Source: Desulfitibacter sp. BRH_c19
GTDB lineage: Bacteria; Bacillota; DSM-16504; Desulfitibacterales; Desulfitibacteraceae
Reading direction: 5' to 3'
DNA: 64,000 nt
NCBI GenBank assembly: GCA_001515945.1
Contig: LOER01000033.1
Coordinates: forward strand, 1-64,000
In this document: positions 786 through 49,246 of the stretch, piece after piece
Numbering within the stretch: the first letter of the stretch is position 1
Layout: each line of letters opens with the position of its first letter
Made by a program: the position numbers and the translations under genes
The notes under the pieces: model-generated
The model's database searches: none
Told to the model about the DNA's origin: nothing
Seen by the model: only the letters and a program-made list of their open reading frames with translations

Positions 786-794
786 AGCAGTTTG

Positions 795-1389: not shown

Positions 1390-1392
1390 CGC

Positions 1393-4955: not shown

Positions 4956-5001
4956 ATAAGAAAAAGTGGCCCTAGTGGAAGACACACTTTGGGACCACTT
5001 T
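4956..5001 (-). terminator. Terminator of the feo operon
   Basis: On the minus strand AAAGTGG-T-CCC pairs with GGGCCACTTT and is followed by TTTTTC. It lies 20 bases past the stop of the small Cys-rich gene, the last gene of the feo operon. Confidence 0.75.
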
Positions 5002-5020
5002 CCTCTTGAGGTGGCAAAAT

Positions 5021-5188: not shown

Positions 5189-5194
5189 CTCGCT

Positions 5195-27464: not shown

Positions 27465-28115
27465 TTATTTCCCATTAATTAAATCCATTACCTTAGTAAC
27501 TGCTTCAGGAGCATCTTCAGCATAAGCATCAGCTCCAATTTTATCCGCAAAACGTTGGGTTACAGGTGCTCCACCCACAATTGTCTTAAATCGTTCTCTA
27601 ACACCTCTCTTTCGTAATTGATCCTCTAAAGTCTTTTGATTCATTAATGTAGTACTAAGTAATGCACTAGTCCCAATAATATGAACATCATAATCTAAAG
27701 CAGCCTCTATTATCCTAGCATTTGGAACATCACGCCCCAAATCAATAAGTTCTATTCCCTGGGTTTTTAAAAGCGATATAACTATACTTTTCCCAATATC
27801 ATGAACATCGCCCTCAACTGTTGCAATGAGCATTTTAGCGACCTTTCTGCTTGGGTCATTATCTTGGACAGCAAAATTTAATATTTTGGTAGTTTTCTGC
27901 ATAATACTTGCGGATTGAATTAGTTGAGGAAGAAATTTCTCACCTCTCTCAAAAAAATCTCCTACCGTTCTAATACCTACACTAAACCCTTCATTAAGAA
28001 TAAGGATAGGATCTATACCAGAACTAATAACAAACTCAGCCAATTGTATTGCTTTTTTTTCATCACACTCTACTATAGAGCTAATTGCTTCTTTTATAAG
28101 ATCTTCTTGATTCAT
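27465..28115 (-). CDS. mtbC: Corrinoid protein of methylamine methyltransferase
   Basis: A 216-residue methyl carrier. The N-terminal half is the helical cap domain, and the C-terminal Rossmann B12-binding domain has DVHDIGKSIV, whose His is the lower cobalt ligand, with IGTSALLSTT and VGGAPVTQRFADKIGADAYA following. It takes methyl groups from MtbB and MttB and passes them to a corrinoid:tetrahydrofolate methyltransferase, which is not in the window. It lies between the two Pyl enzymes, 16 bases after mtbB. It could be called mttC as well; the families are not separable by eye. Confidence 0.93.
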   Translation of the reverse strand: MNQEDLIKEAISSIVECDEKKAIQLAEFVISSGIDPILILNEGFSVGIRTVGDFFERGEKFLPQLIQSASIMQKTTKILNFAVQDNDPSRKVAKMLIATVEGDVHDIGKSIVISLLKTQGIELIDLGRDVPNARIIEAALDYDVHIIGTSALLSTTLMNQKTLEDQLRKRGVRERFKTIVGGAPVTQRFADKIGADAYAEDAPEAVTKVMDLINGK

Positions 28116-28131
28116 GAAACACCTCCAAGAA

Positions 28132-29523
28132 TTAATTTACTTTTATTTTCTTCTTAAATCTAGATACCGAGTTAATATGAATGTCCAGTATCTTTTCTAT
28201 GCGAATCTTAGCTTCCATACCTATAGCAGCTCCAGGCCTTGCCAATACATGACCAATATTTAAATCTTCTCTAACTTCTCTCATTATTTGAGAATCTGCA
28301 AGGTCCATTAGAGAAACCTTAAGTTTGTCTGCTACGTATTTTTTAGCTTCTCCAATCCTCATGGCCTTAGATGACATAACTCGTGCTACCAGATCTCCGG
28401 CAGTACGAACTCCACCCATTCCTGTGGCCAACTCATGAAGAAAAGCCATTCCAAAAGTATCTCCATGACCTATCTACAATCCATCTGCTTTACCTATTTC
28501 TACCAGTGAAACAGATGCTCTAGAAATGGCATCTACTGGGGCTGTGCTTGTCATGGGAACACCACCCACCCCCATGCCAGCATTAGGATGAATTGGTATA
28601 TTTGATGTTTCTGAACACGCTTTAACAAATGTACAAGCTCTAGCTATATTCCATGGTACTGTTTTATTGCTGTTAGTATTTATAACTGGACCAAACACGT
28701 TTGCTCCAGCTTTTTCTGCCAGCTTAACTTGATTATGTGGATATAATCCAGCTAGACGTACATCATCATAAAACAGATCTCCATGCATCCCCATTACAAA
28801 CTCTCCTGCCATTCCAATTTCAATATCCATGTCCGGATGTTCTTTCTTTAGTTTCTCTATGGCCTTAAGAGCTGCTAGAAAATCCCCGTCTCCTGAGGCT
28901 CCTACAGTATCGAAGTTTATACCATCTGACCCTGCCTCATGCATAAGACTAGACACATAAAATATGTCTTTAACGGCATGCTCAACTGCTTCCTCTTGAG
29001 CTACTTGTGCTTCTTTTATTTTCATCATAGGTAAAAGTTCGCTCCAATTATCCACAGGACCATCTGGTTTGGTATATAGTCCTAGGTTAGGCATGGCTCC
29101 GTAGAAAACTGGAATAGTTGAGTTTAATTGAATTTGCTCCATCACCTGTCGTTCTTCATGAACTATTGGTTTTACTGATTTAAAGCTATAATCAATATGG
29201 CCTACTTCAATGGTATCAGAGCAGATTGCTCTCTCGTGTGTTAGCACAGTACCCAATCTATCCACCGGCACCCCTCCCCTTAAAGGAAACTTTAAGGTGC
29301 CAGCATCAAAGCTATGAACCACTTCATTGCCATGTTCAACGCTTATAACTTTTTGAGGGAAAGCACAAATCTCATACAGTCTTTTTAGCTCATCCTCTGT
29401 AAGGAGAGGAATCTTGCCACGTTCTGCTGCATCCTTTGTCCCCTCTTCTAAATCACTCCAGAGTTCCTTCTCACTTAAAAAGCAGATACTACCATCGCCC
29501 ATTCTCGAAAGAATTTTCCCCAT
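28132..29523 (-). CDS. mtbB: Dimethylamine:corrinoid methyltransferase with in-frame TAG (pyrrolysine), copy 1
   Basis: A 463-residue MtbB with TAG at 28474-28476 as codon 350. The sequence before it, SLVEIGKADGL, and after it, IGHGDTFGMAFLHELATGMG, continue the family without a gap, so the TAG is read as Pyl. ATG at 29523 is taken as the start: AAAAGGAGG lies nine bases before it, and the resulting N-terminus (MGKILSRMGDGSI) matches copy 2 at 49246 (MVFTRLGDGSI). The frame is open from 29556, but that start would place the binding site inside the gene. The Pyl region matches copy 2. Confidence 0.95.
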
Positions 29524-29661
29524 TTCTTCTTGCCTCCTTTTAATGTGAGGCGACATACCTCAATTTGGAGCTACATACTTTGGCTGAGGAATGTCCCCAA
29601 CTTATTAAATTGTTTATTGCAGGGAAATACATATCTTAGATACTTATTACTGGCCCAGTTC

Positions 29662-32814: not shown

Positions 32815-32996
32815 TTTCAACCTCCTAACATTTTTTAAATACTTAGATTAATAAATTTCAATATATTATGTCCACATTTTAGCATAACAGAGTTAAATAT
32901 CAAGTAATTGAACTACTAAGCCTTTTACCTATCTTAATATTTTTATGCCGTCAAATAAAAAAACAGACCAATCCATGTCGTCTTACTTGGAGAAAA

Positions 32997-33797
32997 CTAT
33001 ATTGCAGCTGTATTTCTACTTTCTTTCTCTGACATCGTACCGTTTTTAATATGATATTCTATATTCCTAAACTGACAAAAGTCTACTACTTGTTGGCTTA
33101 ATAAATTGTAGAAAGCCCTATAGTCCTTATACTCTCTAACCTTAGGATTATAATTTAATCTCCCGAAAATTATTTTGTCAACAAAGGTAACCGATTTTAA
33201 TACTTCGGAAAAATTTTGATCTACTATATTGGGTGTAGGGTATGGCTCAATACTTACCCAGGTTTTATACCCTTTCTCATGCAGGTAATATAGCCTTTCA
33301 ATTCGCTGTCGGTAGGTAGCTGAATTCGGCTCATATTCTTTCCTGTAATCTTCATTTAACGAAATAAGAGTAATGCCATACTCGTTTCTTCTGCTTAATT
33401 CTGTAAGTTCTTTTGGAAGTAAACCTTTTGTTAGTGCAGTACATTTGATTCCTGCACTATTAAGCATTTTTATTATATCCATGCTTAACATGCTGATTTC
33501 AGGATAGTCAAACATAAATGGGTCGGTTGTAAAACAAAGATGTACTGATATAATTTTTGATTTTAATTTGGGTATTTCCTCTTCCAACAAAGATAGTGTA
33601 TTGTGTACCACTTGGGGTTCAATCCATTCCTCATATGTGCGTGCTTTACCAAACCGTTTTGCCATTAAAAATGCATAGCATGGGTATTTACATCCATGGG
33701 AACACCCCTGCACATGATTTATGGTATAATCACCATACTCTACACCAGTTTTATATAGTAGCGTTTTTCTTGATATGTATTTTGTAACTTTTTTCAT
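32997..33797 (-). CDS. Radical SAM protein, three-Cys-motif (TcmP partner) type
   Basis: A 266-residue radical SAM protein related to the spore photoproduct lyase-like and phage Gp37/Gp68 group. The cluster-binding Cys are at 32, 36 and 40 (HVQGCSHGCKYPCYAFLMAK), spaced C-x3-C-x3-C, unlike the usual C-x3-C-x2-C. Other features are HLCFTTDPFMFD and TKGLLPKEL. It overlaps the upstream tcmP gene by ATGA, so the two are translationally coupled. Function of such pairs is not established; association with DNA-damage control is suggested by the promoter. Confidence 0.85.
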   Translation of the reverse strand: MKKVTKYISRKTLLYKTGVEYGDYTINHVQGCSHGCKYPCYAFLMAKRFGKARTYEEWIEPQVVHNTLSLLEEEIPKLKSKIISVHLCFTTDPFMFDYPEISMLSMDIIKMLNSAGIKCTALTKGLLPKELTELSRRNEYGITLISLNEDYRKEYEPNSATYRQRIERLYYLHEKGYKTWVSIEPYPTPNIVDQNFSEVLKSVTFVDKIIFGRLNYNPKVREYKDYRAFYNLLSQQVVDFCQFRNIEYHIKNGTMSEKESRNTAAI

Positions 33798-34993
33798 TGG
33801 ATTCGTCTCACCTCAATTTTATATTTTGTGTAGTCAAACCCAGTAGCAACTCTTCCTGTTCTTGTTTTTGAAGGATTTCGGATTATTACAATGGTTCTTT
33901 CATCTTCCATACCTTTCAAAGAAGCTCTACAATCTGGTAAAGAGTATGCAATACCAAATTTTTCTATGACTTTGCAATACAAATCAATTAGATTTAAAGA
34001 ATATCCTCTCTCTTCTAATGTGGAAACTATTCCTTTTTTTAAGTCAAAATCTCCAAAAATACTTCTATCGGGATAGTCATACTCGAATAAAACCATTTGC
34101 CCATTGCGTTGATCGTTTAATATTTGTTTCCACTGTTTGTTCATATTATTACACATAAGAAATAGCCCTTCATGGTGATTAGTACCAAAAATCAACCTAT
34201 ATTTAGGAATATTCTTGGTTTTCAGCTTTATAGGTATATTTACGGTATATTTAAATATTTTTTTACCTTTCAATCTTTTTATATATTCATTCACAAAAAT
34301 TTCTTCAGCCTTGAACATATCGTATTGTTTTAAATGATACTTGGTAAGAATTTCCCGCCAATATTCTCCATCAGCAATACTATTTAGTAACTTTATACCA
34401 TCCGAAGTATCCAATTTTTCCGCTTCATAAAGTCCTTCATCATCATCATTAAAACCAATACATTCAACATTATATTTATATTTCATAAGGCGGCAACCTT
34501 CCCGTAAGAAACCAAAGGAGTTAAAGTTCATCAACATTTCATAGGAATAGAATCCGCTATCCTTTAGTTTGGCAAAACGCTTGAAATCAAGGCTTTTGAT
34601 TCCATACGGATCTATATACAAAAATATATTTCTGTTAGGTTTCAATATGTTTTCAAAATTTTCCTCAAACGTTCCTTCAATTACCTCACAATTCGCATAA
34701 ACCTTAAGATTTCCCATTAAATCTTCTGCATATTTCTTCTCGATAAAAACTCCTTGAATATCGGTATAAGCATCTTCATCAAGTACTGATTGAATCTTTT
34801 TCGCTATAATCAAAGGCGAACCATCACACCCATCTTCAAACTTACCCATACCAGCAAAACAATCCACTAAAACAACAGGTTTATGCGTGGATAGAATTTT
34901 TGCAATATATGGAGTAAGATACCACTCAAGTATGCTATCTTTAATAACAGACCATTTTCTTTTTTTCTTAAAGAACTTATCTGTACCCCCCAT
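33794..34993 (-). CDS. tcmP: Three-Cys-motif partner protein TcmP
   Basis: A 399-residue protein. The N-terminal half has a methyltransferase-like fold, with KWSVIKDSILEWYLTPYIAK, VVLVDCFAGMGKFEDG and the signature FLYIDPYGIKSLDF. The C-terminal half is charged and includes FGTNHHEGLFLMCNNMNK. The name comes from its regular pairing with a radical SAM protein of three-Cys type, encoded here directly downstream. The substrate is unknown. The ATG follows GAGGGGG. The leader contains a LexA/DinR-like palindrome over the start point of transcription. Confidence 0.85.
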   Translation of the reverse strand: MGGTDKFFKKKRKWSVIKDSILEWYLTPYIAKILSTHKPVVLVDCFAGMGKFEDGCDGSPLIIAKKIQSVLDEDAYTDIQGVFIEKKYAEDLMGNLKVYANCEVIEGTFEENFENILKPNRNIFLYIDPYGIKSLDFKRFAKLKDSGFYSYEMLMNFNSFGFLREGCRLMKYKYNVECIGFNDDDEGLYEAEKLDTSDGIKLLNSIADGEYWREILTKYHLKQYDMFKAEEIFVNEYIKRLKGKKIFKYTVNIPIKLKTKNIPKYRLIFGTNHHEGLFLMCNNMNKQWKQILNDQRNGQMVLFEYDYPDRSIFGDFDLKKGIVSTLEERGYSLNLIDLYCKVIEKFGIAYSLPDCRASLKGMEDERTIVIIRNPSKTRTGRVATGFDYTKYKIEVRRIQ

Positions 34994-35050
34994 ATAAATA
35001 TCCCCCTCGCATAAAACTCTGGTACCATGTTTTGACTATGCACTTGGCTC

Positions 35051-35076
35051 ATATCCAGAACATATGTTCTGGATAT
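35051..35076. promoter_or_regulatory. SOS (LexA/DinR)-like box and extended palindrome
   Basis: A perfect 26-base palindrome whose core GAACATATGTTC matches the Gram-positive LexA consensus GAAC-RNRY-GTTC; the outer base is A/T rather than the usual C/G. The palindrome extends to ATATCC and GGATAT at the ends. It starts one base after the -10 box of the tcmP promoter, so a bound protein would stop transcription. Confidence 0.7.
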
Positions 35077-35105
35077 ATTATACAACTGTTTACCCAATTT
35101 GTAAA
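35077..35105 (-). promoter_or_regulatory. Sigma-A promoter of tcmP and its radical SAM partner
   Basis: On the minus strand TTTACA (35100-35105) and TATAAT (35077-35082) are 17 bases apart, close to consensus. Confidence 0.85.
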
Positions 35106-35197
35106 GGTATTAACAGCCCATAGTGTATTAACAGCCTATTCATAATCTTATTCCAATTATGAAGTTATTCCATACACCTGAAACAGCAAAGGCTATT

Positions 35198-36508
35198 TTA
35201 TGTCTCAAGCAGCTTATAAGGCATACCATATTTTCGAAGCTTCATAATGAAATTTGGAGCCTTTCGCCTGTTAAACATCTTATTAAATTTATCTATTTTT
35301 CCTTTTAAATAAGCTAATGGAAAATTATTAAGACCGTTTTCCTTGCATGCAAAAATATGCCTTTTGTCTTCCTTATATTCTTTGTCCAGGCTTTCATACA
35401 ATTTTGATCCTGCCATATAATCAAGAATCTTGACATTTACTTGATCAAAAGGAATATTCAAGGCATACTCAAAAGTATTATTTATGCTCTCCTCCGTTTC
35501 CATTGGGGCACCAATAATAAAGTTGCCTACTGTATATATACCAATACTGTCAGCATATCTGATTAACATCTCAACATGCCTTAAATCAAGATCTTTTTGA
35601 TAAAAGTCAAGAATATGGTTGTTAGCTGACTCTATTCCAAAGCTGATTAATGAAACTCCTGCCTTTTTGGCTAAATCCAAAAATTCTACGTCAATTTTAG
35701 TCCAACTGCTTAATGCTAGTTTCATGTCTTTGGTTAAATCTTCATGGACAAACCCTTCAAGGATATCTTTTGCACGAGGCAAATTAAAAGAAAAATTATC
35801 GTCCGACACCCATATATTAATATAATTATTATCTCTAATCTCTCTAAACTCACTGAGTACATTTTCCATAGATCTAAACCTATACTGGGTATTCCATCCC
35901 TGTCTCTGACAGAATATACAACTATTCAAACACCCCCGGCTTGTTTGTACTAAAGTGGATTTTGCTAGAAAAGGCTTTCTATTAACTGTACCTCCATGCT
36001 CAGCAAATCCCGATAATAAAGACCTATCAGGGAAAGGTAATGTGTCAAGCTTCAAAACCACTTTATCCTTTAGCACTATCTCATCCATATTCAAAGTACT
36101 ATTTACAAGCATATCGACTACGTTACAAATTGACGGTTCTGGTTCACAATCAAAGGTGAAGTCTACATATTCCATCTTTCTAGGAAACAATATGCAATCT
36201 TTACCAAATGCCACAATCTTAATAGAAAGTTTTAATTCACCTATAAGCTGTACCATTTGACGGGCTTTGGAAACATTTGTACTGCGTTTCAAAGGAAAGC
36301 TGTCAAGTTCAACTACTACCACGTCAGCCTTTTCAAGCTGTTCTATTAAACCCTGTGCACAGAAATTTTCAACGGCATAGTCCTTGTATTCTATCTTGTG
36401 TCCAGCTTTTTTTAATATGGATGAAAGGTACAAAAGATCCAATGAAAAACCAAACCTTGCACTTTTTACCTCATCCGGTTCAGGATAAATAAGTAAAATA
36501 TTAGCCAT
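35198..36508 (-). CDS. B12-binding domain radical SAM protein
   Basis: A 436-residue protein. Residues 1-140 are a cobalamin-binding-like Rossmann domain (MANILLIYPEPDEV, ADVVVVELDSFPL) without the DxHxxG base-on motif, which suggests base-off/His-off binding. A radical SAM domain follows, with CLNSCIFCQRQGW near 190. Family members methylate unreactive carbons or phosphorus, or do ring rearrangements. ATG at 36508 (GGAGAG six bases upstream) overlaps the stop of the preceding gene. It is the last gene of the RiPP-like cluster. Confidence 0.88.
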   Translation of the reverse strand: MANILLIYPEPDEVKSARFGFSLDLLYLSSILKKAGHKIEYKDYAVENFCAQGLIEQLEKADVVVVELDSFPLKRSTNVSKARQMVQLIGELKLSIKIVAFGKDCILFPRKMEYVDFTFDCEPEPSICNVVDMLVNSTLNMDEIVLKDKVVLKLDTLPFPDRSLLSGFAEHGGTVNRKPFLAKSTLVQTSRGCLNSCIFCQRQGWNTQYRFRSMENVLSEFREIRDNNYINIWVSDDNFSFNLPRAKDILEGFVHEDLTKDMKLALSSWTKIDVEFLDLAKKAGVSLISFGIESANNHILDFYQKDLDLRHVEMLIRYADSIGIYTVGNFIIGAPMETEESINNTFEYALNIPFDQVNVKILDYMAGSKLYESLDKEYKEDKRHIFACKENGLNNFPLAYLKGKIDKFNKMFNRRKAPNFIMKLRKYGMPYKLLET

Positions 36509-37328
36509 TTGAAACTCTCCATTTAATAGTTTTAAAATAGTCAATCAAGTGTACCATTGCATACAATCCCCAGGACGTACCATCCTCTATCTCATGATAT
36601 TTCCATATCCCGTTCTTCAACTGATTTCTGTGCAACCACTCATAACTTCTTTTAAAAACCTTCGTATCTACTCTTTCCCGATATTGTAAAAGACCAATGG
36701 TTGCAATTGCTGTGCAAAAAACATCTGAGTCTACTGGGTGGGCCTTCCATGGAGAAAAACCTCCATCTGCCTCTTGGTTTTCGACAAGCCATTTCACCGT
36801 ATCATCAATCAATTGGGGATTAACAGGCATATAATCCTTTTTTTTAAATGCCATCAATGTATAAGCAGCTTTATAGGTAATGCCTCCGAACTCCTCATAC
36901 CAGAGTTCTTCCAGCAGTCTTAACTCTGTACTTTCTGCCGCTTCCGGCAATAAATAAAAATACAGACCGCTGACTGGAATCCTGCTAATATCTCTGTTTG
37001 ATCTTCCCCAAAGACCTTCCTTGTTTCTATGATTGCCCATGAAATTCAACGCACGTTTTATATTGTCCTTGAAATTACTGTAGCCAAGCTGCTTTAAGAA
37101 AAACGCATTCCATATAGTATCCCCTATTCCTGCCCAACCACCATCCTCATGTTGTTCATCCAGACATCGCTTGACAATATGCTCAGGTATTGAGTTGGCC
37201 GAAAGCCCACTCATCAATAAGATTGAAGATGTCTTTGTAATTCTCTTCAACTCAATATTTTTCCTATTCATCTCTGCAATCATATTTCTAAGAGATATTA
37301 CTGTTCTCAAAATGTTACCTTCAATCAC
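36501..37328 (-). CDS. Prenyltransferase/squalene-cyclase-repeat protein
   Basis: A 275-residue alpha/alpha-toroid protein. QW-like repeats are visible as DEQHEDGGWAGIGD, NKEGLWGR, NQEADGGFSPW and NQLKNGIWKY, as in squalene-hopene cyclases and prenyltransferase beta subunits. It lacks an obvious DxDD catalytic motif, and is about half the length of a squalene cyclase, so a binding or oxidase-like role is also possible. It overlaps its neighbours by a few bases on both sides, showing translational coupling. GTG at 37328 follows GGGGG. Confidence 0.75.
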   Translation of the reverse strand: MIEGNILRTVISLRNMIAEMNRKNIELKRITKTSSILLMSGLSANSIPEHIVKRCLDEQHEDGGWAGIGDTIWNAFFLKQLGYSNFKDNIKRALNFMGNHRNKEGLWGRSNRDISRIPVSGLYFYLLPEAAESTELRLLEELWYEEFGGITYKAAYTLMAFKKKDYMPVNPQLIDDTVKWLVENQEADGGFSPWKAHPVDSDVFCTAIATIGLLQYRERVDTKVFKRSYEWLHRNQLKNGIWKYHEIEDGTSWGLYAMVHLIDYFKTIKWRVSNG

Positions 37329-38164
37329 TTCTTTACCCCCGTTACAATAAAATCAAAAATGATTGCCACATTTCCTTCTGTATTTAAAAAATTCTCCAAC
37401 TGATCAATATCTGCATGGGCATCTTGTTCTGATATATAACCTACTGAAGTTAATTCAGGAACGAGATTTCTATAAACCTCAAGCATAATTTCTCTATATA
37501 CTTTATTGTCATCTTCCACAATATTTTTGCCTATAATATTGGTATGTATATTAGTCATACTCAGGCTTTTAAGTATAAATGGAAGTTTTCTCCCTATAAA
37601 AGAATCCCCACCCCTGTGCGTGTGTTGATTATATTTGTTGAGTGCATCCATGTAGGATGATTTATATAATGGAAATTTAGGAAACCATATGTTGGAAGAC
37701 ACATCCTTGTCTATCAGTATCATTACCCCTTTTTTCTTCAATAGATCAGCCATGTTTTTTACCGCTCCTATAGGGTCAAACATGTGCTTTAGGGCAAATC
37801 TACAGAATACAAGGTCATATTTCCCCTTGATATCAACAGGATTTAGTATGTCATCCTTGGTAAAGTTCACCTGCAGTCCATGGCTTTGTATCAGTTTTCT
37901 TGAATAGTCAAATAGATTTTCTGACATATCACAATATGTTACTTCTGCATCTGGAAAAAGTTGTTTAAGCAACACAGTTGTATGCCCTGTCCCAGCCCCT
38001 ACATCTATAATCCGCTTAAAATCATTATCCCTATACCCCTCAAATAACTGCAACATCTGCTCATGGTAGGCATAACTAAGCTTGATAAGTCTATCCAATT
38101 CCATTTTCTTCAAAGGCCGTTCGTCAAATATAAACCTTCCTCTTTTCTGCATATTCATATACAT
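37325..38164 (-). CDS. Class I SAM-dependent methyltransferase
   Basis: A 279-residue methyltransferase. Motif I is RIIDVGAGTGHTTVLLK, motif II TYCDMS, and the post-I region YDLVFCRFALKHMFDP, which resembles small-molecule methyltransferases of the UbiE/COQ5 type. It begins inside the end of the amidohydrolase gene (10-base overlap) and ends within the next gene. It could modify the peptide or a tailoring product of the cluster. An internal ATG (fifth codon) is an alternative start. Confidence 0.87.
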   Translation of the reverse strand: MYMNMQKRGRFIFDERPLKKMELDRLIKLSYAYHEQMLQLFEGYRDNDFKRIIDVGAGTGHTTVLLKQLFPDAEVTYCDMSENLFDYSRKLIQSHGLQVNFTKDDILNPVDIKGKYDLVFCRFALKHMFDPIGAVKNMADLLKKKGVMILIDKDVSSNIWFPKFPLYKSSYMDALNKYNQHTHRGGDSFIGRKLPFILKSLSMTNIHTNIIGKNIVEDDNKVYREIMLEVYRNLVPELTSVGYISEQDAHADIDQLENFLNTEGNVAIIFDFIVTGVKK

Positions 38165-38970
38165 CCCATATTCTGATTAAGTAGTTTTTCAATATTCTTA
38201 TACAGAACAAGTTCCCTGTCTTCTTGTGTTAAACAATCTAGTGAATTAAACCTTTTTAGAGTTGTAATTGGCTTTTCATAAGGAAAATCCGAGCCAAAAA
38301 GCAGCTTTTTGGCTCCCACAATTTCAAGTGCTCTTTTTAGTATCTCTTCATCCGTGATTGTAGAAATATCGTAATATACATTAGGGTATTTGTTTAATGC
38401 TTCCAAAGTACTGCTGATTTGATTAATCTCAGGCAGGTATTTATTTTGAACCAGATAGTCTGCCCCAAGGTGTGCCAAAATAATTGTTAACTTCGGAGTA
38501 TCTTTAAGCATGTCATCGGTGAGCCTTTCAATCTTGTTCTCTCCCCCATGTAGCAATAGTGGAAGTCCGTGCTTTTCCATAAATCTATAAGTTTTCTTAA
38601 ATCGCTGTGAAAATATATTCCTCCCAGCATAATCCTTCTGAATTCGCTGTCCAAAGGTATGTTCCTTAAAACCTTTAACACCCTGCTCAACCCAATACTG
38701 CGGTTTATCATCTACTACAGTAAATGGAATAAATCGACCAGTATGTTTTCGAGCTGCCTCAACAGCATATCTATTTCCCGCTTCAATATCAATCTCAACA
38801 CTTGGCAGAGGAAATATTATAGTACTCGCAATACTCCCTTCCTCCATATTGGCTAATATAACCTCTTCATCAGCTTCATAATTAAAATTGCGTATAATAA
38901 AGTCATTGCTTTTTTTTACTTTTACCCAACCCTGTCGATGAATATGGCAGTGTACATCAATTACCCTCAT
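38155..38970 (-). CDS. Amidohydrolase family (TIM-barrel) protein
   Basis: A 271-residue metal-dependent hydrolase or decarboxylase. The metal site is visible: VIDVHCHIH (HxH, residues 5-8), LLLHGGE, ILAHLGADY and LFGSDFPYEKP. This order matches amidohydrolase family 2 (PF04909), whose members hydrolyse amides or decarboxylate aromatic acids. ATG at 38970 follows GGAGGAATATA, and lies inside the radical SAM-GNAT gene end. In the cluster it might act on a modified peptide or on a precursor compound. Confidence 0.88.
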   Translation of the reverse strand: MRVIDVHCHIHRQGWVKVKKSNDFIIRNFNYEADEEVILANMEEGSIASTIIFPLPSVEIDIEAGNRYAVEAARKHTGRFIPFTVVDDKPQYWVEQGVKGFKEHTFGQRIQKDYAGRNIFSQRFKKTYRFMEKHGLPLLLHGGENKIERLTDDMLKDTPKLTIILAHLGADYLVQNKYLPEINQISSTLEALNKYPNVYYDISTITDEEILKRALEIVGAKKLLFGSDFPYEKPITTLKRFNSLDCLTQEDRELVLYKNIEKLLNQNMGCI

Positions 38971-40510
38971 TATATTCCTCCAAATATGTGGTTAACTTTT
39001 CCAGCTCTTCAGTCCTTGTTTTATAACCTTCCAACCATCCATTGTACATAGGTGCTGATAATTCAATTTGCTTATCAAGGGCTTTTTGCATACTATAGAC
39101 AGCTTGACCATCCACTTTAAAAAAGCCCTCTGCCTCAATCCTATTTTTATTTGTTACTGTTTTTTCAAAGAAGCCTCCTCTTAACTTCTTCAGAACCTTC
39201 ATCGAAGGGATATTTGCTTTGTGGGAAGTCCAGCCAATTTTTTTTAATTCAGGATGAAGTAAAAAGAGTTTTCTTAATACTATAAAAGAATAGTATCCTC
39301 CCCTTAGCTGAGGAATTAAAGAGATTTCAATAAAGTTTGCATTTGTCTTTGTGTTTTTTATTGCAATAATCCCTATAGGATGCTTATACTTGTGTTTTGA
39401 AAATATCGTATAAGCTGTGGGTACCTTTTTAAATGAATTGCCTAAAAATGGTCTATAAAGGTCTATTAAAAGGTCAAAGAACTCGTTATTTATACCTTCT
39501 TTAAATACTACTTCGTCATCAAGGATAAGGCTGTCATCAGAGAACATTTCTCCCCGAGAAGCATGGCACCCTCCCAAACAGTTCTCCCAGTAGCTGCAAT
39601 TCTTGCAGTATTCACTTCTCCACCTACCTTCTGTAAATTCTTCGATACATTTATTCTTATCCAATACTTCTGCTGTATCGAGAATAGAAGCTCCCACTCG
39701 CTTTTCAGCGCATGGACAAAGCTTTATATTTCCATTACTATCCAAAGCTAATGCTTTTCTTCCTATAATACATGATCTGTTTACTTTCTCTATGATTTCC
39801 TCATTTTCTATTACATTATTTAGGAAACATAGCGGGTAGGCTTCGCCATAAGCATTAATTCCCAATTCATTATTTATCTGTACAAGCTGCTGTATTAATA
39901 GGGCATGTTCAAAATATCCAAGGGGTTTTTTTAGAAACCCCTCCGCTTTTCCTACTGGAAGAATTCTATTAAGATTCACATCGGTTATTTGTATGCCTTT
40001 GTCCTTCAATATTTTAATCGTTTGAAAAAAGGACATATAATTTTCCCATAATGGAGAAAAGAAAATTCCCAAGTCCATACAGCTTTCCCCTATCAGCTTT
40101 AGGTTCTTCAATACTTTATTAAAGAGCCCGCTATCCGTGATGCCCATAATTTTATTATACTGCTTTTTGTCCGCACTATGAAAAGACACACTAATTCGCT
40201 TTAAATGCCTCTCAAGAAATTCTATATCCTTCTCTTCGATTAATGAAGCATTAGTAATTACCTGATTAGACAGACCCTTTTCAGAAGCATACATTAATAT
40301 ATCCTTCCAGAAGGGAATAAGAAAAAATTCTCCCCCTGTATAACTAATGGTTTTAAAGCCACGCTCAACTATCTTGTCTATGATTTTCTTTATGTCTTTT
40401 AGTTCTGAATGCTTTATATTACTTTCAGTACTCCAATCGTTTCTGCAATAGTTGCACCTATAATTGCAAGGATTGGATACATCATAAACAGCCAGCATGT
40501 AATTTTCCAT
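38957..40510 (-). CDS. Radical SAM/SPASM protein fused to a GNAT-like acetyltransferase domain
   Basis: A 517-residue two-part protein. Residues 1-320 form a radical SAM domain with CNYRCNYC (Cys 15, 19, 22) and a SPASM-type Cys set (LCPCAEK, CKNCSYWENCLGGCHASRG). Residues about 350-470 look like a GNAT acyltransferase: HPIGIIAIKN, ISLIPQLRGGYYSFIVLRKL (acyl-CoA loop QLRGGYY) and NIPSMKVLKKLRGGF. The tail is helical. The fusion could combine radical chemistry with N-acylation of a peptide. I know of no characterised relative. Confidence 0.8.
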   Translation of the reverse strand: MENYMLAVYDVSNPCNYRCNYCRNDWSTESNIKHSELKDIKKIIDKIVERGFKTISYTGGEFFLIPFWKDILMYASEKGLSNQVITNASLIEEKDIEFLERHLKRISVSFHSADKKQYNKIMGITDSGLFNKVLKNLKLIGESCMDLGIFFSPLWENYMSFFQTIKILKDKGIQITDVNLNRILPVGKAEGFLKKPLGYFEHALLIQQLVQINNELGINAYGEAYPLCFLNNVIENEEIIEKVNRSCIIGRKALALDSNGNIKLCPCAEKRVGASILDTAEVLDKNKCIEEFTEGRWRSEYCKNCSYWENCLGGCHASRGEMFSDDSLILDDEVVFKEGINNEFFDLLIDLYRPFLGNSFKKVPTAYTIFSKHKYKHPIGIIAIKNTKTNANFIEISLIPQLRGGYYSFIVLRKLFLLHPELKKIGWTSHKANIPSMKVLKKLRGGFFEKTVTNKNRIEAEGFFKVDGQAVYSMQKALDKQIELSAPMYNGWLEGYKTRTEELEKLTTYLEEYNEGN

Positions 40511-40558
40511 GATATCATCAACCTTTATTCATATTTAATTCTTTCGTATTTGGTGTTT

Positions 40559-41881
40559 TTATTTACTCCAAAGTCTTTCTTTTATACCTATTATCATCTT
40601 ATTTTCTCCTGGATAATAAAAATCAGCTAACCCATCAATAAAGACCTTTTTCTTTTGCTCAGTTATCTTAATGCTGTTTATTCTTTCAACAGCTTTTATT
40701 AAATTTTCCTCTGTTCTTCTTGTATTTCCGTTATCCAAGTAATAATAAACCCTAGCAAGGTCCCAGTAGTGATTATATGTTTTATTATTAATCGATTTTA
40801 GGTTATTCTCTGCTACTTTCAGTAATTGTTCTTTTTCCTTATCACCTTTCTCTAGTGCCAACTTAATTTGTACAATAGCTAAATTTCCAAGTGTTTCATC
40901 GGCAACTATTTCAGTTGAGGAAGATTTTTTTATTTGTAATGATCGTTCATAATAAAAAATAGCCTTTTTTAGTGTTTCTATTTCATCAAAACCATTATGA
41001 TCACACTGAGACATCCAGCTGGCGGTGCAATCTATAGGGTGATTCATGCAGATATACTCATTACGATCAGGACATTCACGGTTTAACTCTTCATCTGTCT
41101 TAAAATTGTAATATTGCCATAAAAGCTGTCCAAGCAAGTGATAGAGAAGACTTTTAAATCCTTTGTCTTTATCAATAAAATCTCTTTTCAAAATATACTC
41201 ATAAATTTGATAGGCTTTTCTATATCTATGGAAATCTGCCTCATTGCTCAAAGTGTTCTTAGCATATATTACCTCCAACCAACCATTTCTGCAATAATCC
41301 TCGGATACGAGTGCTAAAATCCTAGATTTTTCTTTTATTTCTTCTTGAGTTTGAAACATTTCTTCTATAGACATACTGCTGTCTGGTGAATAGAATTTTT
41401 CCTGCACCTTTTTTGCCAAGTCACTTTTCTCTTTTAATGTATTAACATCCTCTTGCACATCATTTAGTTGTTTAATCTTATTATCAAAATCTCTATATTT
41501 TTTCCATCCTACAAGCCCTGCTAATGCAATAAGCACTGAAATTAAAGTAAAAATAATCGCATAAGAACTATTTAATGTATCCACACTTAGATAGTTATTA
41601 CCTATTTTAGCACTCTCTTTTTCTATACCTTCTAATATTCTAGTCAGTTCTTTATACTGTTCACCACTAATAGGTTGGTTTGTTGTATCTATCCTGTCGT
41701 CAACCTTTATGGTGAAGGTCACTTGGGTATTTTCCACCATAGGTGTTGTCCTAATGAAATTATTATATCCATGCATGATAGCCAGCATAAACCCAGCCAC
41801 AATAATAAGAAACCCTACCAAATAAACTAGGTCATACAGTATATCTTTATTTCGTTGTTTGATACTCTTAGTTTCTTGCAT
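40559..41881 (-). CDS. Two-TM membrane protein with helical repeats
   Basis: A 440-residue protein with membrane segments at about 17-40 and 105-125 separated by an extracytoplasmic loop of about 65 residues, then a coiled coil and a long helical-repeat region (TPR-like; YRKAYQIYEYILKRDF, ETLKKAIFYYERSLQIKK, WDLARVYYYLDNG). The pattern suggests a membrane-bound scaffold with its repeats inside the cell. A Cys pair occurs in YICMNHPIDC. ATG at 41881 has GGAG upstream and overlaps the stop codon of the propeller gene by 14 bases. It may organise the maturation enzymes or act in export; no transporter signature is present. Confidence 0.6.
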   Translation of the reverse strand: MQETKSIKQRNKDILYDLVYLVGFLIIVAGFMLAIMHGYNNFIRTTPMVENTQVTFTIKVDDRIDTTNQPISGEQYKELTRILEGIEKESAKIGNNYLSVDTLNSSYAIIFTLISVLIALAGLVGWKKYRDFDNKIKQLNDVQEDVNTLKEKSDLAKKVQEKFYSPDSSMSIEEMFQTQEEIKEKSRILALVSEDYCRNGWLEVIYAKNTLSNEADFHRYRKAYQIYEYILKRDFIDKDKGFKSLLYHLLGQLLWQYYNFKTDEELNRECPDRNEYICMNHPIDCTASWMSQCDHNGFDEIETLKKAIFYYERSLQIKKSSSTEIVADETLGNLAIVQIKLALEKGDKEKEQLLKVAENNLKSINNKTYNHYWDLARVYYYLDNGNTRRTEENLIKAVERINSIKITEQKKKVFIDGLADFYYPGENKMIIGIKERLWSK

Positions 41882-43235
41882 ATATCTCCACACCCCCATC
41901 TCCATCCGCTTTATAAATAAAGCCCTTCTCTACCATTACACCTCGGGTAAATGCAGAGGTGGGAATTTGACTTATCTGCTTCTTTAACGCTTTATCCCAA
42001 AGGTTGTATACTAAAACCCCATTTCGTCCATCTGCAATGAAAAGTTGTCCATCATCAATCATCAGATCTCTTGCCTGAACAGTTTCTATAGTTCCAACAA
42101 GCTTTATTTCGTGTAAATCCTCAGCATCAAATATTATAACACCATCAGCTCCACAGGCTGCATACAGCATGTTATCATGCTCAAGCACAGTCCAGCATCT
42201 GTCTATTATATCTTCATAGGAGTACAAAAGTTTCAAATCATGATCAAAAACCTTAAATCCCTCGTAGGAACATGCAGCAAAAACAGCCCTGTCCCGCGCA
42301 CACACACCTATAACCTCTTTGCAGTTCTTGTATTGTGTTTGACACTTCATGCTTTTTATATTCTTTTTGTTTACTTTTATCAATCCTTGGGTATACGCCG
42401 CCAGGTATACATAATCTCCATAAACACAGCTGTCCCATACTCCGCTTGAAAGTACTATCCCACTCACAAGTTTGGGGTTTTCAGGATTTGTAATATCTAT
42501 AACTTTAAGCCCTACAGCTTCACATGAGGCATATGCAAAACTACCTTCTACAATGACCTTTGCTATTCTGTTCCTATTGCTTTCAAATCTACCTATCAAT
42601 TTGAAATCCTGGCTTTTATCATATATTTTTAAACCCAGCACATCTGCTACATAAACAAATTCATCCTGTACAGCTATGTCCTTTGGCCATCCTTTGCATA
42701 CTAATGTATCATTAAGAATTGGTTTATCAAGGTTTGAGATATCTAATATCCTTAAACCAAATACGTCTGCAATATAAAGCTTAGAACCTGCCAGACATAT
42801 ATCATCTATAAAGGAGTACCCTGGGAAATCAAAATGCACAACCTTCTCACCTTTATGAGTATAAAACTCTATTCCCTGCTGCTTGTATGCAACTGCTATA
42901 ACATGATTATCCCAATCCAATGCTCTGGGATCTTCAACAAGGTTAGGTAACTTTTCTAATATTTTATCTTTGTTCTTGTCCACTTTAGTCACATTAATCT
43001 GTTCTATTAATCCTAGCCTATTATCCTCTTCTACAAATTTGAAACACCTGCCTTGTCTATCCAACGTATAGAGTTCTTCATCCACAACTTCCAAGCTTGC
43101 AAACCCCACAAATGGAATATATTCGGATTCTTTTAATGTGTTTTGGTCAACAAAGATAAAACCCCCAGCTACATACCCTACTACATATTTTTTCCACACA
43201 ACAACCCTATGCCAATTGCCCCCAATTTTTTTCAC
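41868..43235 (-). CDS. Beta-propeller protein with LVIVD-like repeats
   Basis: A 455-residue protein with repeats of the form [GLKI]DITNPENPKLV, ADVFGLRILDISNLD, VADVLGLKIYDKSQ and CGADGVIIFDAEDL, about seven blades, typical of LVIVD-repeat propellers. No signal peptide is seen when the GTG at 43235 (AAAAGGAG ten bases upstream) is used; the frame is open from ATG 43313 without a binding site. Being the first gene after the precursor peptide, it may bind or present the peptide. No enzyme active site is recognisable. Confidence 0.7.
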   Translation of the reverse strand: MKKIGGNWHRVVVWKKYVVGYVAGGFIFVDQNTLKESEYIPFVGFASLEVVDEELYTLDRQGRCFKFVEEDNRLGLIEQINVTKVDKNKDKILEKLPNLVEDPRALDWDNHVIAVAYKQQGIEFYTHKGEKVVHFDFPGYSFIDDICLAGSKLYIADVFGLRILDISNLDKPILNDTLVCKGWPKDIAVQDEFVYVADVLGLKIYDKSQDFKLIGRFESNRNRIAKVIVEGSFAYASCEAVGLKVIDITNPENPKLVSGIVLSSGVWDSCVYGDYVYLAAYTQGLIKVNKKNIKSMKCQTQYKNCKEVIGVCARDRAVFAACSYEGFKVFDHDLKLLYSYEDIIDRCWTVLEHDNMLYAACGADGVIIFDAEDLHEIKLVGTIETVQARDLMIDDGQLFIADGRNGVLVYNLWDKALKKQISQIPTSAFTRGVMVEKGFIYKADGDGGVEIYARN

Positions 43236-43354
43236 AGGTGTACAGCTCCTTTTAAAAACATAAAAGACAGTAATCACTTTACACTTGCATATTTCTCTGC
43301 TAATTGAATACATCTTGATTATATCTTTACTATCAATAATTTATTGACAATAAT

Positions 43355-43397
43355 AAATGGAAAGCAAAGAGAAGTTGCTTATCTCTGCTTTCCATTT
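43355..43397 (-). terminator. Hairpin between the peptide gene and downstream genes
   Basis: AAATGGAAAGCA (43355-43366) and TGCTTTCCATTT (43386-43397) pair perfectly, with a further GAGA/TCTC stem inside. The minus strand continues TATTATTG, a weak T tail. It likely reduces read-through so that the precursor mRNA is made in excess, as in other peptide clusters. Confidence 0.65.
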
Positions 43398-43404
43398 ATT
43401 TAAT

Positions 43405-43563
43405 CTAATTACAATTACAGTTTGTGCAACCAAAACACCAGTTTCCACCATTAAACTCTTCCCATATTTCCTCCGAAAAGTTCATACCATCTTCCTTTTC
43501 AAAAAGTGGAGTTTGATAAGTTTTTTTATCAACAGCAACCTTGTCAATCTTGATATTTTCCAT
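43405..43563 (-). CDS. Putative RiPP precursor peptide with Cys/Asn-rich C-terminus
   Basis: A 52-residue peptide. The leader-like part contains KKTYQTPLFEKEDGMNF and SEEIWEEF; a GG pair (residues 39-40) precedes the tail NWCFGCTNCNCN, with Cys at 43, 46, 49 and 51 and Asn at 41, 48, 50 and 52. The start is ATG at 43563 with AAGGAGG nine bases upstream; a longer frame from 43587 would bury this site. It lies directly behind genes for a PqqD-like protein and a SPASM radical SAM enzyme, the classic setting for a thioether or similar radical-modified peptide. It stops at TAG with a TAA three codons later. Confidence 0.75.
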   Translation of the reverse strand: MENIKIDKVAVDKKTYQTPLFEKEDGMNFSEEIWEEFNGGNWCFGCTNCNCN

Positions 43564-43583
43564 ACTCTTTATCCTCCTTAAAT

Positions 43584-43862
43584 TCACTTTTCTATTAATA
43601 TGTTATTGCTAACCCAATTTTGTACCATAAAATTCAAATCTTCCTTAAGCTTTAATGTTTCCACTTCATACACCGCCATCAAGATATCATATATATCTGA
43701 AAGTTTTTTTTCACCGTCAAAAAGTTCAAGCATATCATATGCAACTTCATTCAACCTATATATCGAACCATCAGAAATATCAAATAAAAAGAACTTCTTG
43801 CTGTTAAAATCTCCCTGATATAAGCTGAACTTATCAGCTAAGAAATACACTTTATCTTCCAC
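43584..43862 (-). CDS. PqqD-like peptide recognition protein (RRE)
   Basis: A 92-residue winged-helix protein with the PqqD pattern: FFLFDISDGSIYRLNEVAYD followed by MLELFDGEKKLSDIYD. PqqD-like domains bind the leader of a precursor peptide and deliver it to the radical SAM enzyme. The start is uncertain. GTG at 43862 is preferred: GGGAG lies six bases before it and the length then matches PqqD; the frame is open to 43928 and would overlap the maturase gene by 41 bases. It is followed after 20 bases by the precursor gene. Confidence 0.85.
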   Translation of the reverse strand: MEDKVYFLADKFSLYQGDFNSKKFFLFDISDGSIYRLNEVAYDMLELFDGEKKLSDIYDILMAVYEVETLKLKEDLNFMVQNWVSNNILIEK

Positions 43863-43887
43863 CTTTTTCTCCCACTCCTTATTAATA

Positions 43888-44907
43888 CTATTTCCAGCAT
43901 TGTGGGTCATCTGCCATATAGTTTCCATTGACCGTATATGCTATCGCCCTGCAACCTCCACAATTAGCAAGAATACTACAGTTTTTACATTTTCCCCCCA
44001 GCAGTTTCTTATTTCGTAGCTTCCATAGCACTTCAGAGGTATACCATATTTTGAATAATCCATCTGTCAAAATATTTCCTACTGGTATTTCTAAACGTCT
44101 ACAGGGTAAAACAGTACCATCATTTAAAATACACAGACTTGTCAAACCCACAGGACAAAATCCCCCAAGCTGATTATCTATCAATCCCCAAAGAGGCCGT
44201 GACACTCTAACTCTCAAGTCAGAAGCCTGCTCAACTTTCTTTTTCTTTTCATATATTTGTTTATATATTTTATATAATTCATCTGATGGTATATAAAAGT
44301 TATTTATATCCTCATCATTCATTGGCGTAATTCTTTCTATAGTAAGAGCATCAATCTCCAATTCCTTTGCGAGATCCATAACTGCAACAGCATCTCTTAC
44401 ATTTAGTCTATGTAGTGTGAACATTATAGAGACAAAAAATTTGTTTCTTTTAATGATTTCAATAGCCTTTACTGCTTTGTCAAAGCTTCCAATTCCCCTG
44501 ATTTTGTCATGGGTATCTGCATTATATCCATCAATTGATATCTGAATCTCTTTAAGTTTATTATACCTTTTAAGCTGTGCTGCTAATTCATCATCAATCA
44601 AAGTTCCATTACTTAATATGCCTACCCAATAAAAATTATTGGATTTTTCAAAATAAGAAAGCAGGTCAAGAAGTATATCTTGCTTCAGAAAGGGTTCTCC
44701 CCCAGTAATAGACACTCTTCCTTTCTTATTCCACTTTTCTAGCGTATTATCCATGGTTTTAGCTATTTTCAATAATTTATCTTTATCCAGTGCTTTGACC
44801 TTGTAGCCTTCTTGATAGCAGTGAACACACCTCAAATTACATTCCTCAGTAATATGCCACTGAAAATAAAAATGGTCTTTCTGATCCTTTCTTTCATTAA
44901 CAACCAT
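43888..44907 (-). CDS. Radical SAM/SPASM peptide maturase
   Basis: A 339-residue enzyme of the PqqE/anSME-like group. The [4Fe-4S]-SAM Cys are at 23, 27 and 30 (CNLRCVHC), followed by SITGGEPFL. The C-terminal SPASM region has CPVGLTSLC, GTVLPCRRLEIPVGN, and CKNCSILANCGGCRA for auxiliary clusters. With PqqD-like and precursor genes directly behind it, the most likely role is crosslinking Cys in the NWCFGCTNCNCN tail. It is the first gene of the cluster. The ATG follows GAGAGGAATTTATA. It ends TAG-TAT-TAA. Confidence 0.9.
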   Translation of the reverse strand: MVVNERKDQKDHFYFQWHITEECNLRCVHCYQEGYKVKALDKDKLLKIAKTMDNTLEKWNKKGRVSITGGEPFLKQDILLDLLSYFEKSNNFYWVGILSNGTLIDDELAAQLKRYNKLKEIQISIDGYNADTHDKIRGIGSFDKAVKAIEIIKRNKFFVSIMFTLHRLNVRDAVAVMDLAKELEIDALTIERITPMNDEDINNFYIPSDELYKIYKQIYEKKKKVEQASDLRVRVSRPLWGLIDNQLGGFCPVGLTSLCILNDGTVLPCRRLEIPVGNILTDGLFKIWYTSEVLWKLRNKKLLGGKCKNCSILANCGGCRAIAYTVNGNYMADDPQCWK

Positions 44908-45644
44908 TATAAATTCCTCTCAAGTACATTGATTGTTACAACATTTAGTAAGTACTGATTTTATCTTAGCATATGTATTAGAAAAATGGAATGTATGTTT
45001 TATGTTTTTTTGGTCTAAGATACACTCACCTCTGGATTTATCTTCAATTGAACCAATACTCTCTCTAATAGTAATTGACTTACAAAATCCTAACTTTCAA
45101 TGCTTTATTTTCTCTTGGATCATTTTATTAAAAGGCATATCGCTTGTATCATAAACTAGGAAGATCTTCTTTAGCTGGAACATGGCGTAAAAATCCGGCT
45201 TAGTCCGGTATCAAATCCGCCTACAAAAAAAATCGAATACTCTTGCAGGATTTTTTTCATCTATATATTCAAGCTTTCTGAAAGAGAACTGTCTGCCCTC
45301 CATCAGTACTACAAATATATGCTAAGAAATCCACCATCAACTTTTTTTTTGCTACTTCTACTGTGCCACGATAACATTGATACGTATAGATTTTCAGCAG
45401 ATTTAAATATTCTATAGCATTGAACTCTTCAGAATATCTTTTTATTTAGTTATTATTCTTCTATTTTTTGACAGCCTGTAAAGTAATGGATTTTTGAGTA
45501 GTGGTAACATTTTTATGCCTTTTATTAATAAAGTAGAGCATTTTATGTTACTTCTTGTATGGAGTAAATTATCAATTGGAGGAAATACTAAAAAATACAT
45601 TATGTCTCATTATTACAAAATCCTCAGTAACATGGGAGGTTAAG
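44908..45644. other. AT-rich region between the peptide cluster and kamA
   Basis: No convincing gene. It contains the cluster's upstream region (AT-rich, no clear promoter), a palindromic CCGG-N6-CCGG stretch near 45199, T runs near 45250 and 45342, and a 58-codon open stretch on the minus strand (about 45269-45445; reads YSEEFNAIEYLNLLKIYTYQ) without a start or binding site. The last could be a relic of a gene. The right end is the leader of kamA. Confidence 0.4.
45504..45633 (+). promoter_or_regulatory. Leader with competing pairings before kamA
   Basis: ATGTTAC (45545-45551) can pair with GTAACAT at 45504-45510 or with a second GTAACAT at 45627-45633, which touches the GGGAGG ribosome binding site. 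The first pairing is extended by ATGC/GCAT. One form would free the binding site, the other hide its neighbourhood. Confidence 0.35.
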
Positions 45645-47196: not shown

Positions 47197-47841
47197 TTAA
47201 CTTGTTTTGGCCTTAACAAGCTTTAATGCCTTGTTAACTCCATCTATTGCATTTTCTGCATAAGCGTCTGCCCCTATTCTTCTAGCCCATCTTTCTGTCA
47301 ATGGCGCACCACCTACAATGGTAATAAACCTTTCTCTTAACCCCTCTTTGCGCAGAGTATCTTCTAAATCTTTTTGTCCCTGCATGGTTGTAGTTAACAA
47401 TGCACTAGTACCAATTATATCGGCATTAACCTCAAGAGCTTTTTCTATGAAGTCAATTGTCGGAACATCCCGCCCGATATCATGTACTTCAAATCCATTA
47501 GCATTAAATAAAGCAACTACTATAGATTTCCCAATATCATGCACATCACCTTTTACTGTACCAATTACTGCCGTTCCTACTTTATTGCTACCCACTTCAG
47601 ATAATTGCTCATTAAGCAGGGTAGATACTTTTTCCATTACCTGAGAACTATGAACCAATTCTGGCAGGAATATTTTTCCTCTTTCAAAAAGATCACCAAC
47701 TTTAACTATGCCTGGAATAAATCCTTTTGTCATTAATTCTAAAGGATCAATATTTTCTTGTAGCCCATTTTTTACAATCTCTTCAGCTTTATCCATATTA
47801 GAATCTATAATGGACCTAATAGCTAATTCATACAATTCCAT
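47197..47841 (-). CDS. mtbC: Corrinoid protein of methylamine methyltransferase, second copy
   Basis: A 214-residue methyl-carrier protein, similar throughout to the one at 27465. It has ELVHSSQVMEKVSTLLN in the cap domain, DVHDIGKSIVVALFNANG with the cobalt-binding His, IGTSALLTTTMQG, and VGGAPLTERWARRIGADAYA. It lies 28 bases behind the second mtbB and would take its methyl group. The ATG follows AAGGGGG. Confidence 0.93.
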   Translation of the reverse strand: MELYELAIRSIIDSNMDKAEEIVKNGLQENIDPLELMTKGFIPGIVKVGDLFERGKIFLPELVHSSQVMEKVSTLLNEQLSEVGSNKVGTAVIGTVKGDVHDIGKSIVVALFNANGFEVHDIGRDVPTIDFIEKALEVNADIIGTSALLTTTMQGQKDLEDTLRKEGLRERFITIVGGAPLTERWARRIGADAYAENAIDGVNKALKLVKAKTS

Positions 47842-47869
47842 TGCTAATACCCCCTTATTGTAAATTACT

Positions 47870-49246
47870 TTATCTTATTTTTTCATAAAAACGTTTTACA
47901 GAATTGATATCTATCCCCAATAATTTACCAATATTACTCTGTGCCTGAATACCCCTGGCCTTCCTAGGAGGAGCAGTGACACTACCAATATCCATATCTT
48001 CTCTAACTTCGTTCATTATTACTTCATCGCTCAATTCTGCTACACTAACGTGTAGTTTATCAGCAACATGCTTTTTTGCTTCACCAATCCGCATACCAAG
48101 GGTCATTTGCATACGTGCAACCAGATCTCCGGAAGTACGTAACCCGCCCATACCCGAGGCTAATGAATGGCTAGCAATCATACCTAATGGATCGCCGGAG
48201 CCTATCTACAATCCATCAATTTTTCCAACCTCTGCTAGAGCAACCGATACCCTACTAACCACGTCTACTGGAACAACCTCTACCGTAGTTACCGCACCTA
48301 CCCCTAATCCTGCATTTGCATGCACAGGAATACTTGAAGCTTCAGCACATGTTTTACAGAAAGTAACGGTACGTGCCAAATTAAAGGCAAAGGATTTATT
48401 GGTGACATTGTTAACTACTGGTCCGAAAATACTTACTCCAGCCTTTTCCGCTAATTTGACTTGTTCATGAGGGTATAATCCGGCTAACTTCACGCCATCA
48501 TAAGAGATGCTACCATGCATTCCTAAAACAAACTCGCCAGCCATACCCATTTCAATACAAATATCAGGATACTTTTTCTTTAATATTTCAGTTGCTTTCA
48601 AAGATGCATAAAAGTCGGCATCACCTGCTGCACCGGTTGTATCAAAGTCTATCCCCTGAGCACCACCTTCATACAATTCACTTGCAACATACACTAGATC
48701 CTTTATACAATATTCAGCTGCTTCTTCTTGAGCAGCTTGTGCTTCAGATATTTTACCTTGTGGAAGCAATTCTGCCCAATTAGCAACCGGACCATCTGGC
48801 CTACTATATGAACCCAAGTTAGGCATAGCCCCATACATTAAGGGAATAGTTAAGATTTGTGAAGCTTGTTCCATAATGGCTCTTTCCTCAGAAGCTAATG
48901 CCTTTACTGTCTTATAACTATAATCAATAAACCCTAGTTCTGCTGTGTCCATACCACAAATTCTTTCATAGGTCTGTAGTAATTGAATTCTACTGACAGA
49001 AAATCCTCTAGGAACAGCCGCCATGGAGGGCGAATCACCTGTCATAATTACTTCATTCCCTGGTTCAACCCCAACAAATTTACCTCTTCTACAACAAATT
49101 TCTAAAAGTTGTAATATTTCATCTTCTGAAAGAGGTGAAATTTCTCCTCTTTCAGCAGCGTCTTGAGTACCTGCCTCCAAATCTGCTCTTATCTCATCTA
49201 CAGAAGCATTGATTATGGAGCCATCACCGAGTCTTGTAAATACCAT
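47870..49246 (-). CDS. mtbB: Dimethylamine:corrinoid methyltransferase with in-frame TAG (pyrrolysine), copy 2
   Basis: A 458-residue MtbB with TAG at 48206-48208 as codon 347. The flanks (ALAEVGKIDGL before, IGSGDPLGMIASHSLASGMG after) continue the family without interruption, as in copy 1. Differences include CCRRGKF where copy 1 has CAFPQKV, and a different N-terminus, so this is a diverged paralogue rather than a recent copy. It has its own sigma-54 promoter and its own corrinoid protein. The ATG follows GAAGGAGGATTCTAA. Confidence 0.95.

Follow-up and report, generated by a model that had tools for sequence, protein, structure and literature searches.

The anti-phage lanthipeptide clusters, which encode ribosomally synthesised and post-translationally modified peptides (RiPPs), lie in defence islands, protect Streptomyces from phages and are described as intracellular (PMC12360287, section 2.1.8). 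As far as found, peptide natural products that protect their producer against phages have been demonstrated for one RiPP class only. Here we describe a putative RiPP cassette built around radical S-adenosylmethionine (SAM) enzymes, located at positions 35198-44907 of a 64,000-nucleotide stretch of Desulfitibacter sp. BRH_c19 (contig LOER01000033.1, positions 1 to 64,000; hereafter the window). In our judgement there is about an even chance that it represents a horizontally mobile cassette which acts in the producer cell, most likely against phages. Directly supported are purifying selection on the precursor peptide, a fixed core set of genes, insertion relative to a congener, carriage by a phage and an association with defence genes. 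The original prediction for this locus missed that the family is large, mobile and associated with phage-defence genes; by analogy, its closest functional counterpart appears to be an anti-phage RiPP and not an ordinary thioether bacteriocin.

Like the window family, the anti-phage lanthipeptides of Actinomycetota are RiPP clusters situated near anti-phage systems. They use lanthionine chemistry, however, occur in Streptomyces and relatives and are without the set of radical SAM enzyme, PqqD and toroid of the window family; antiviral activity was shown for them (PMC12360287), whereas for the window family it is a prediction. Sactipeptides and ranthipeptides (SkfB, AlbA, StsB, PapB) share with the window a SPASM radical SAM enzyme acting on a Cys-rich peptide, but the window maturase reaches no family cut-off (the StsB, AlbA, PapB and CefB models all score far below it), its PqqD is a separate protein and thioethers are only predicted. 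Among solved maturase structures, the nearest are two of SkfB, 5wgg and 6efn (about 2e-10). A precursor, a separate PqqD-type chaperone and a SPASM radical SAM enzyme are also the components of the pyrroloquinoline quinone (PQQ) and mycofactocin systems; mycofactocin clusters include a glycosyltransferase, as does a sister type of the window cassette. The window family differs from both in its core peptide, in the lack of client dehydrogenases and in its mobile, patchy distribution, and the window maturase stays far below the PqqE and MftC cut-offs (TIGR02109, 83/381 bits; TIGR03962, 113/265 bits). The closest curated maturase model is that of the ACGX systems (TIGR04340), which likewise have a Cys-containing precursor. 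Their precursors carry ACG repeats that are absent from the window precursor, their neighbours encode nitroreductase and ferredoxin, and with 174 bits against a cut-off of 400 the window maturase is not an ACGX member. As the original prediction supposed, the cluster appears not to have been characterised before: there is no curated precursor family, and no description of this family was found in the literature searched, which was mostly other than subscription papers and preprints.

The cassette consists of ten open reading frames (ORFs), mostly overlapping or closely spaced and, as predicted, all on one strand (minus), and one strong hairpin:

43888-44907, minus strand: radical SAM/SPASM maturase, 339 residues (PF04055 4e-25, PF13186 1e-8)
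43584-43928, minus strand: PqqD-like peptide chaperone, RiPP recognition element (RRE) type (PF05402 1e-10)
43405-43563, minus strand: precursor peptide, 52 residues, core WCFGCTNCNCN
43352-43400, minus strand: 23-bp hairpin right after the precursor stop codon (repeat search; local fold -26 kcal/mol)
41868-43313, minus strand: LVIVD-repeat beta-propeller, variable part (PF08309 1e-11)
40559-41905, minus strand: membrane-anchored helical-repeat protein, variable part (hydrophobic segments in relatives)
38957-40510, minus strand: second radical SAM protein with GNAT-like C-terminus (PF04055 8e-19)
38155-38970, minus strand: amidohydrolase (Amidohydro_2), core of the window type (PF04909 1.7e-28)
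37325-38164, minus strand: SAM-dependent methyltransferase (PF13847 5e-18)
36501-37328, minus strand: squalene-cyclase-like single alpha/alpha toroid, core of the whole family (domain match 2e-8)
35198-36508, minus strand: B12-type radical SAM enzyme, core of the window type (PF04055 1.7e-17)

The domains assigned in the original prediction were recovered for the SPASM radical SAM, PqqD, propeller, amidohydrolase, methyltransferase, squalene-cyclase-like and B12 radical SAM proteins, while two assignments are weaker. The protein named as a helical-repeat protein with two transmembrane segments matches no Pfam or NCBIfam family in its window form; two hydrophobic segments are present in the relative encoded at L034. 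For the second radical SAM protein, the Pfam E-value of the GNAT part is only 0.08, with a GNAT-like region readable by eye, and homology of this tail to the real GNAT domain of relatives was rejected as no alignment was detectable. The radical-SAM-GNAT protein was likewise discarded as a cluster marker, as a search of 398 genomes from the phylum returned no relative along its full length. The true start of the PqqD-like gene is probably downstream of 43928. Neither an exporter nor a protease is encoded in the window cassette, in agreement with what had been noticed earlier.

The proposed 52-residue precursor is real and conserved: a ribosome-binding site (AAGGAGG) lies just 5' of its ATG, its tail is conserved in other phyla, and a small conserved precursor beside modifying enzymes and a PqqD leader recognition element is a RiPP-type layout. 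Nearly all intact loci of the family contain a precursor-like ORF of 40-59 residues, in which a Y-(E/Q/K)-x-P motif marks the leader and a Cys tail forms the C-terminus. This tail reads WCFGC(T/S)NCNCN in type I, the type of the window, with one variant WCFGCTNCSCSCY, and C(K/R)QCS(S/G)CH(G/S)CR, with small variants, in type II. The sequence WCFGCTNCNCN is identical in another Bacillota genome, in Aminicenantes and in a phage. Between the window and locus L036, 11/11 tail residues are the same with six codons synonymously different, and the same holds for L038 with four such codons; identity of all residues despite these synonymous changes indicates strong purifying selection on the tail. In G329, another genome of the phylum, the precursor is 66% identical overall and its tail identical. 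The window precursor is without a match in NCBIfam and Pfam, and the precursors of four relatives gave no credible match to NCBIfam. In the viral collection, the type I tail pattern has a single match, on the contig with the maturase gene. A permissive DNA pattern for type II tails was abandoned, giving chance-level matches in the 398 genomes and a maturase at none of the eight places inspected. Strong hairpins also directly follow the precursor in L036, L055 and L058; this element is a probable attenuator or partial terminator, a placement to be expected if precursor mRNA exceeds that of the enzyme genes.

A two-sequence maturase alignment was searched against 84,980 genomes and, in addition, viral contigs. 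The genome scan yielded 49 loci, of which about 30 at ≥37% identity constitute the window family and most others are ACGX systems. The family occurs in at least 11 phyla, including the archaea Methanoregula, Methanoperedens and Thermoplasmatota, and in one phage. The window maturase is 62% identical to that of G329, and the CxxxCxxC and SPASM cysteines are invariant in 19 relatives. In the phylogenetic tree, all window-type maturases form one clade (support 100/99) spanning Bacillota, Aminicenantes, Hydrogenedentota and the phage, and the ACGX maturases split off as a separate clade (100/100). PqqD homologues lie directly 3' of the maturase at 21 loci besides the window, and nearly every intact locus has such a chaperone.

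Type I loci are complete in the window, G329, L040, L041 and the viral locus L100. Amidohydrolase, toroid and B12-type radical SAM genes are present in 5/5 of these, and since these three downstream genes always accompany the maturase, the window cassette is one unit. An alternative reading would separate a RiPP unit (maturase, PqqD, precursor) from an unrelated tailoring or metabolic operon lying beside it. The hairpin after the precursor would suit such a division, as would the fact that four of the seven downstream genes are not fixed: the propeller gene was seen in the window and fragment L039, the helical-repeat gene in the window, G329 and fragment L038, and the radical-SAM-GNAT and methyltransferase genes only in the window. 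However, the genes overlap, and wherever a type I locus is complete, in the phage as in the various phyla, the three constant genes come after the RiPP genes. This co-occurrence largely refutes the division, which we consider very improbable. The single cluster of the original prediction is thereby upheld for the three constant genes, of which the B12-radical SAM gene had been proposed for a co-occurrence search; the propeller, helical-repeat and radical-SAM-GNAT genes proposed with it are variable. Identities between G329 and the window are 44% for PqqD, 26% for the helical-repeat protein, 29% for the amidohydrolase, 58% for the toroid and 55% for the B12-radical SAM enzyme.

The remaining gene content varies with the cassette. 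In the complete type I loci other than the window the amidohydrolase is fused to a GNAT domain, and three complete type I loci, G329 among them, have an asparaginyl-tRNA-synthetase-like gene. Type II loci instead encode an Asn-synthase/glutamine amidotransferase (GATase) protein and a GT4 glycosyltransferase, together with a protein of about 1050 residues bearing an MBL domain or another hydrolase. The fold of the hydrolase differs between cassettes: MBL, HD (L057, PF01966 2e-12), PHP (L055, 2.5e-4) or, in type I, amidohydrolase. These exchangeable hydrolases would fit effectors, with tailoring as the alternative. A type II protein of about 600 residues (c12) was labelled HD-like from conserved HFxHQ, FHD and HD motifs read by eye; its predicted structure is of low confidence (predicted local distance difference test, pLDDT, 62) and gave no usable fold match. 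A DNA methylase (PF01555 1.5e-19) is found in two loci; this N6/N4 methylase gene lies between the precursor and the MBL-domain gene of two type II cassettes (L045, 10402-11142; L046, 4527-5240). In two phyla, a MATE-family transporter gene precedes the maturase gene by 300-450 bp (L046, 1149-2591; L064, 892-2274) and may encode an exporter for some relatives.

Homologues of the toroid are present at 18 non-redundant loci and missing from L051, L055 and L058. Invariant residues are R29, Q59, a DGG motif, G108, R112-D113, Y152-K153, Q236 and H245. The AlphaFold2 model (pLDDT 94.7) is a single alpha/alpha toroid whose nearest PDB folds are class II terpene cyclases, with template modelling (TM) scores of about 0.65-0.70. 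A LanC-like cyclase was considered and rejected, as the 50 best fold matches include class II terpene cyclases but not LanC.

Comparison with two congeners points to mobility. In G002, the orthologues of the FMN_red and KAM genes (87% and 80% identical) are just 229 bp apart, and this empty site identifies the corresponding block of the window as an insertion:

32837-45554, about 12.7 kb, no strand: block inserted relative to congener G002 (FMN_red and KAM orthologues adjacent in G002)

In the second congener, G001, the block is absent beside the FMN_red gene. Carriage by a plasmid was dismissed, with no plasmid match above 60% identity and the best at about 29%. The full type I cassette L100 lies on a viral contig of 133 kb that also encodes terminase, baseplate, endolysin and integrase, and its precursor tail is the same as that of the window. 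The cassette is bordered by the tail/lysis genes at one end and by the integrase side at the other, a usual cargo position, and adjoins a divergent RtcR (PF06956 5e-20)/sigma-54 regulator; its B12-radical SAM enzyme is split into two ORFs. No copy besides this one contig was found in the viral collection. Near the L100 cassette, at 3205-4104 and 1243-2106, are amidoligase, class II glutamine amidotransferase-like and gamma-glutamylcyclotransferase-like genes, a possible second peptide-modifying module.

Defence genes flank 15/30 family loci and 0/17 ACGX control loci examined in the same scan with one query set (Fisher p 0.0002), a contrast which is suggestive and not proof because the queries were themselves taken from loci of the family, which inflates it. 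When only defence families recurring across loci were counted, 11/30 family loci remained (p 0.004). The G329 cassette has BREX and bSEFIR on one side and a Gabija-like pair on the other. Genes for DUF499, DUF1156 and PLD-helicase proteins (Hma-like) adjoin L049, L056, L060 and L062, BREX adjoins L048, and a DrmD-like helicase gene adjoins L045. Restriction genes of type IIG-like (L053) and type I (L054, L058) systems, ABC-like defence ATPases (L044, L050) and a CARF protein (L051) complete the list. Directly upstream of the type I cassette in L041, at 355-5282, kinase, VWA and PP2C-like genes resemble by eye a TerY-type conflict module; the one gene of this group tested had no PADLOC match.

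In the mechanism we favour, the PqqD-like chaperone would hold the leader of the 52-residue precursor while the SPASM radical SAM enzyme modifies the Cys-rich C-terminal core WCFGCTNCNCN, most likely by thioether crosslinks. Toroid, B12-type radical SAM enzyme, amidohydrolase and variable accessory enzymes would then complete or use the product, the variable genes acting as tailoring or effector modules. The modified Cys-tailed peptide presumably stays in the producer, as suggested by the lack of an exporter in the cassette, and would most likely serve as a chemical anti-phage defence. Several points besides the origin of the query set weigh against this reading. Half of the family loci have no defence gene in the flank examined, the window's own defence-like neighbours are a weak PDC-M30-like pair only, so that the window itself is but weakly placed among defence genes, and defence islands also gather non-defence cargo. 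No PADLOC model is specific for the core proteins, the matches of the window radical SAM proteins to viperins being generic only, and PADLOC likewise returned nothing for those type II proteins that were tested. The chemistry, the intracellular action and the antiviral effect are inferred, and in L046 and L064 the MATE transporter gene close to the 5' side of the maturase gene would fit export.

This transporter would also fit an exported or released antimicrobial as the product, a sactipeptide- or ranthipeptide-like bacteriocin on mobile islands whose export and cleavage are left to host proteins. A Cys-rich core with a SPASM maturase and PqqD is indeed the layout of thioether peptides, and mobility alone could place such a cassette among defence genes. 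Bacteriocins usually diversify in sequence, however, whereas this core is nearly invariant across phyla, and exporter, protease and immunity genes are absent from the window cassette and other type I loci; we therefore regard a bacteriocin as unlikely. Near-invariance over long distances would suit a peptide-derived redox or metal cofactor of the PQQ/mycofactocin kind, the CxxCxxCx(1-2)C arrangement could bind metal, and the GT4 glycosyltransferase and Asn-synthase-like genes of type II point in the same direction. Yet the cassette is accompanied by no dehydrogenase or other client enzyme, its neighbours are often defence genes, and a patchy, mobile distribution with absence from two congeners is unlike that of a cofactor needed by host enzymes. 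A cofactor thus seems to us about as doubtful as a bacteriocin.

The favoured anti-phage reading can be extended, tentatively, to a widespread class in which a modified Cys-tailed peptide is the product of an invariant core (precursor, PqqD, SPASM maturase and toroid) and works together with exchangeable modules; we consider this possible, though somewhat less likely than not to be correct. The modules would include a metallo-hydrolase of differing fold (MBL, HD, PHP or amidohydrolase) and, in two loci, the DNA methylase, and the RtcR regulator beside the phage-borne copy could respond to RNA damage by activating the system. If true, a second, chemically unrelated anti-phage RiPP family would suggest that RiPPs form a general arm of prokaryotic immunity, and this in a family that spans bacteria, archaea and a phage without any curated model. 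The very short invariant core also offers a new target for radical SAM chemistry, and a terpene-cyclase-like toroid that may work on a peptide raises a question of its own.

Inside the inserted block, the cassette is accompanied by a further gene pair, probably a separate element:

32997-34993, minus strand: radical SAM/DUF5131-like and TcmP-like gene pair, three-Cys-motif partner type (PADLOC PDC-M30A 7e-12, PDC-M41B 7.5e-6, weak)

By its weak PDC-M30/M41 matches, this pair may be a candidate defence system of its own. A gene set for a dimethylamine methyltransferase and a corrinoid protein occurs twice, once on each side of the block, at 27465-29556 and 47197-49246.

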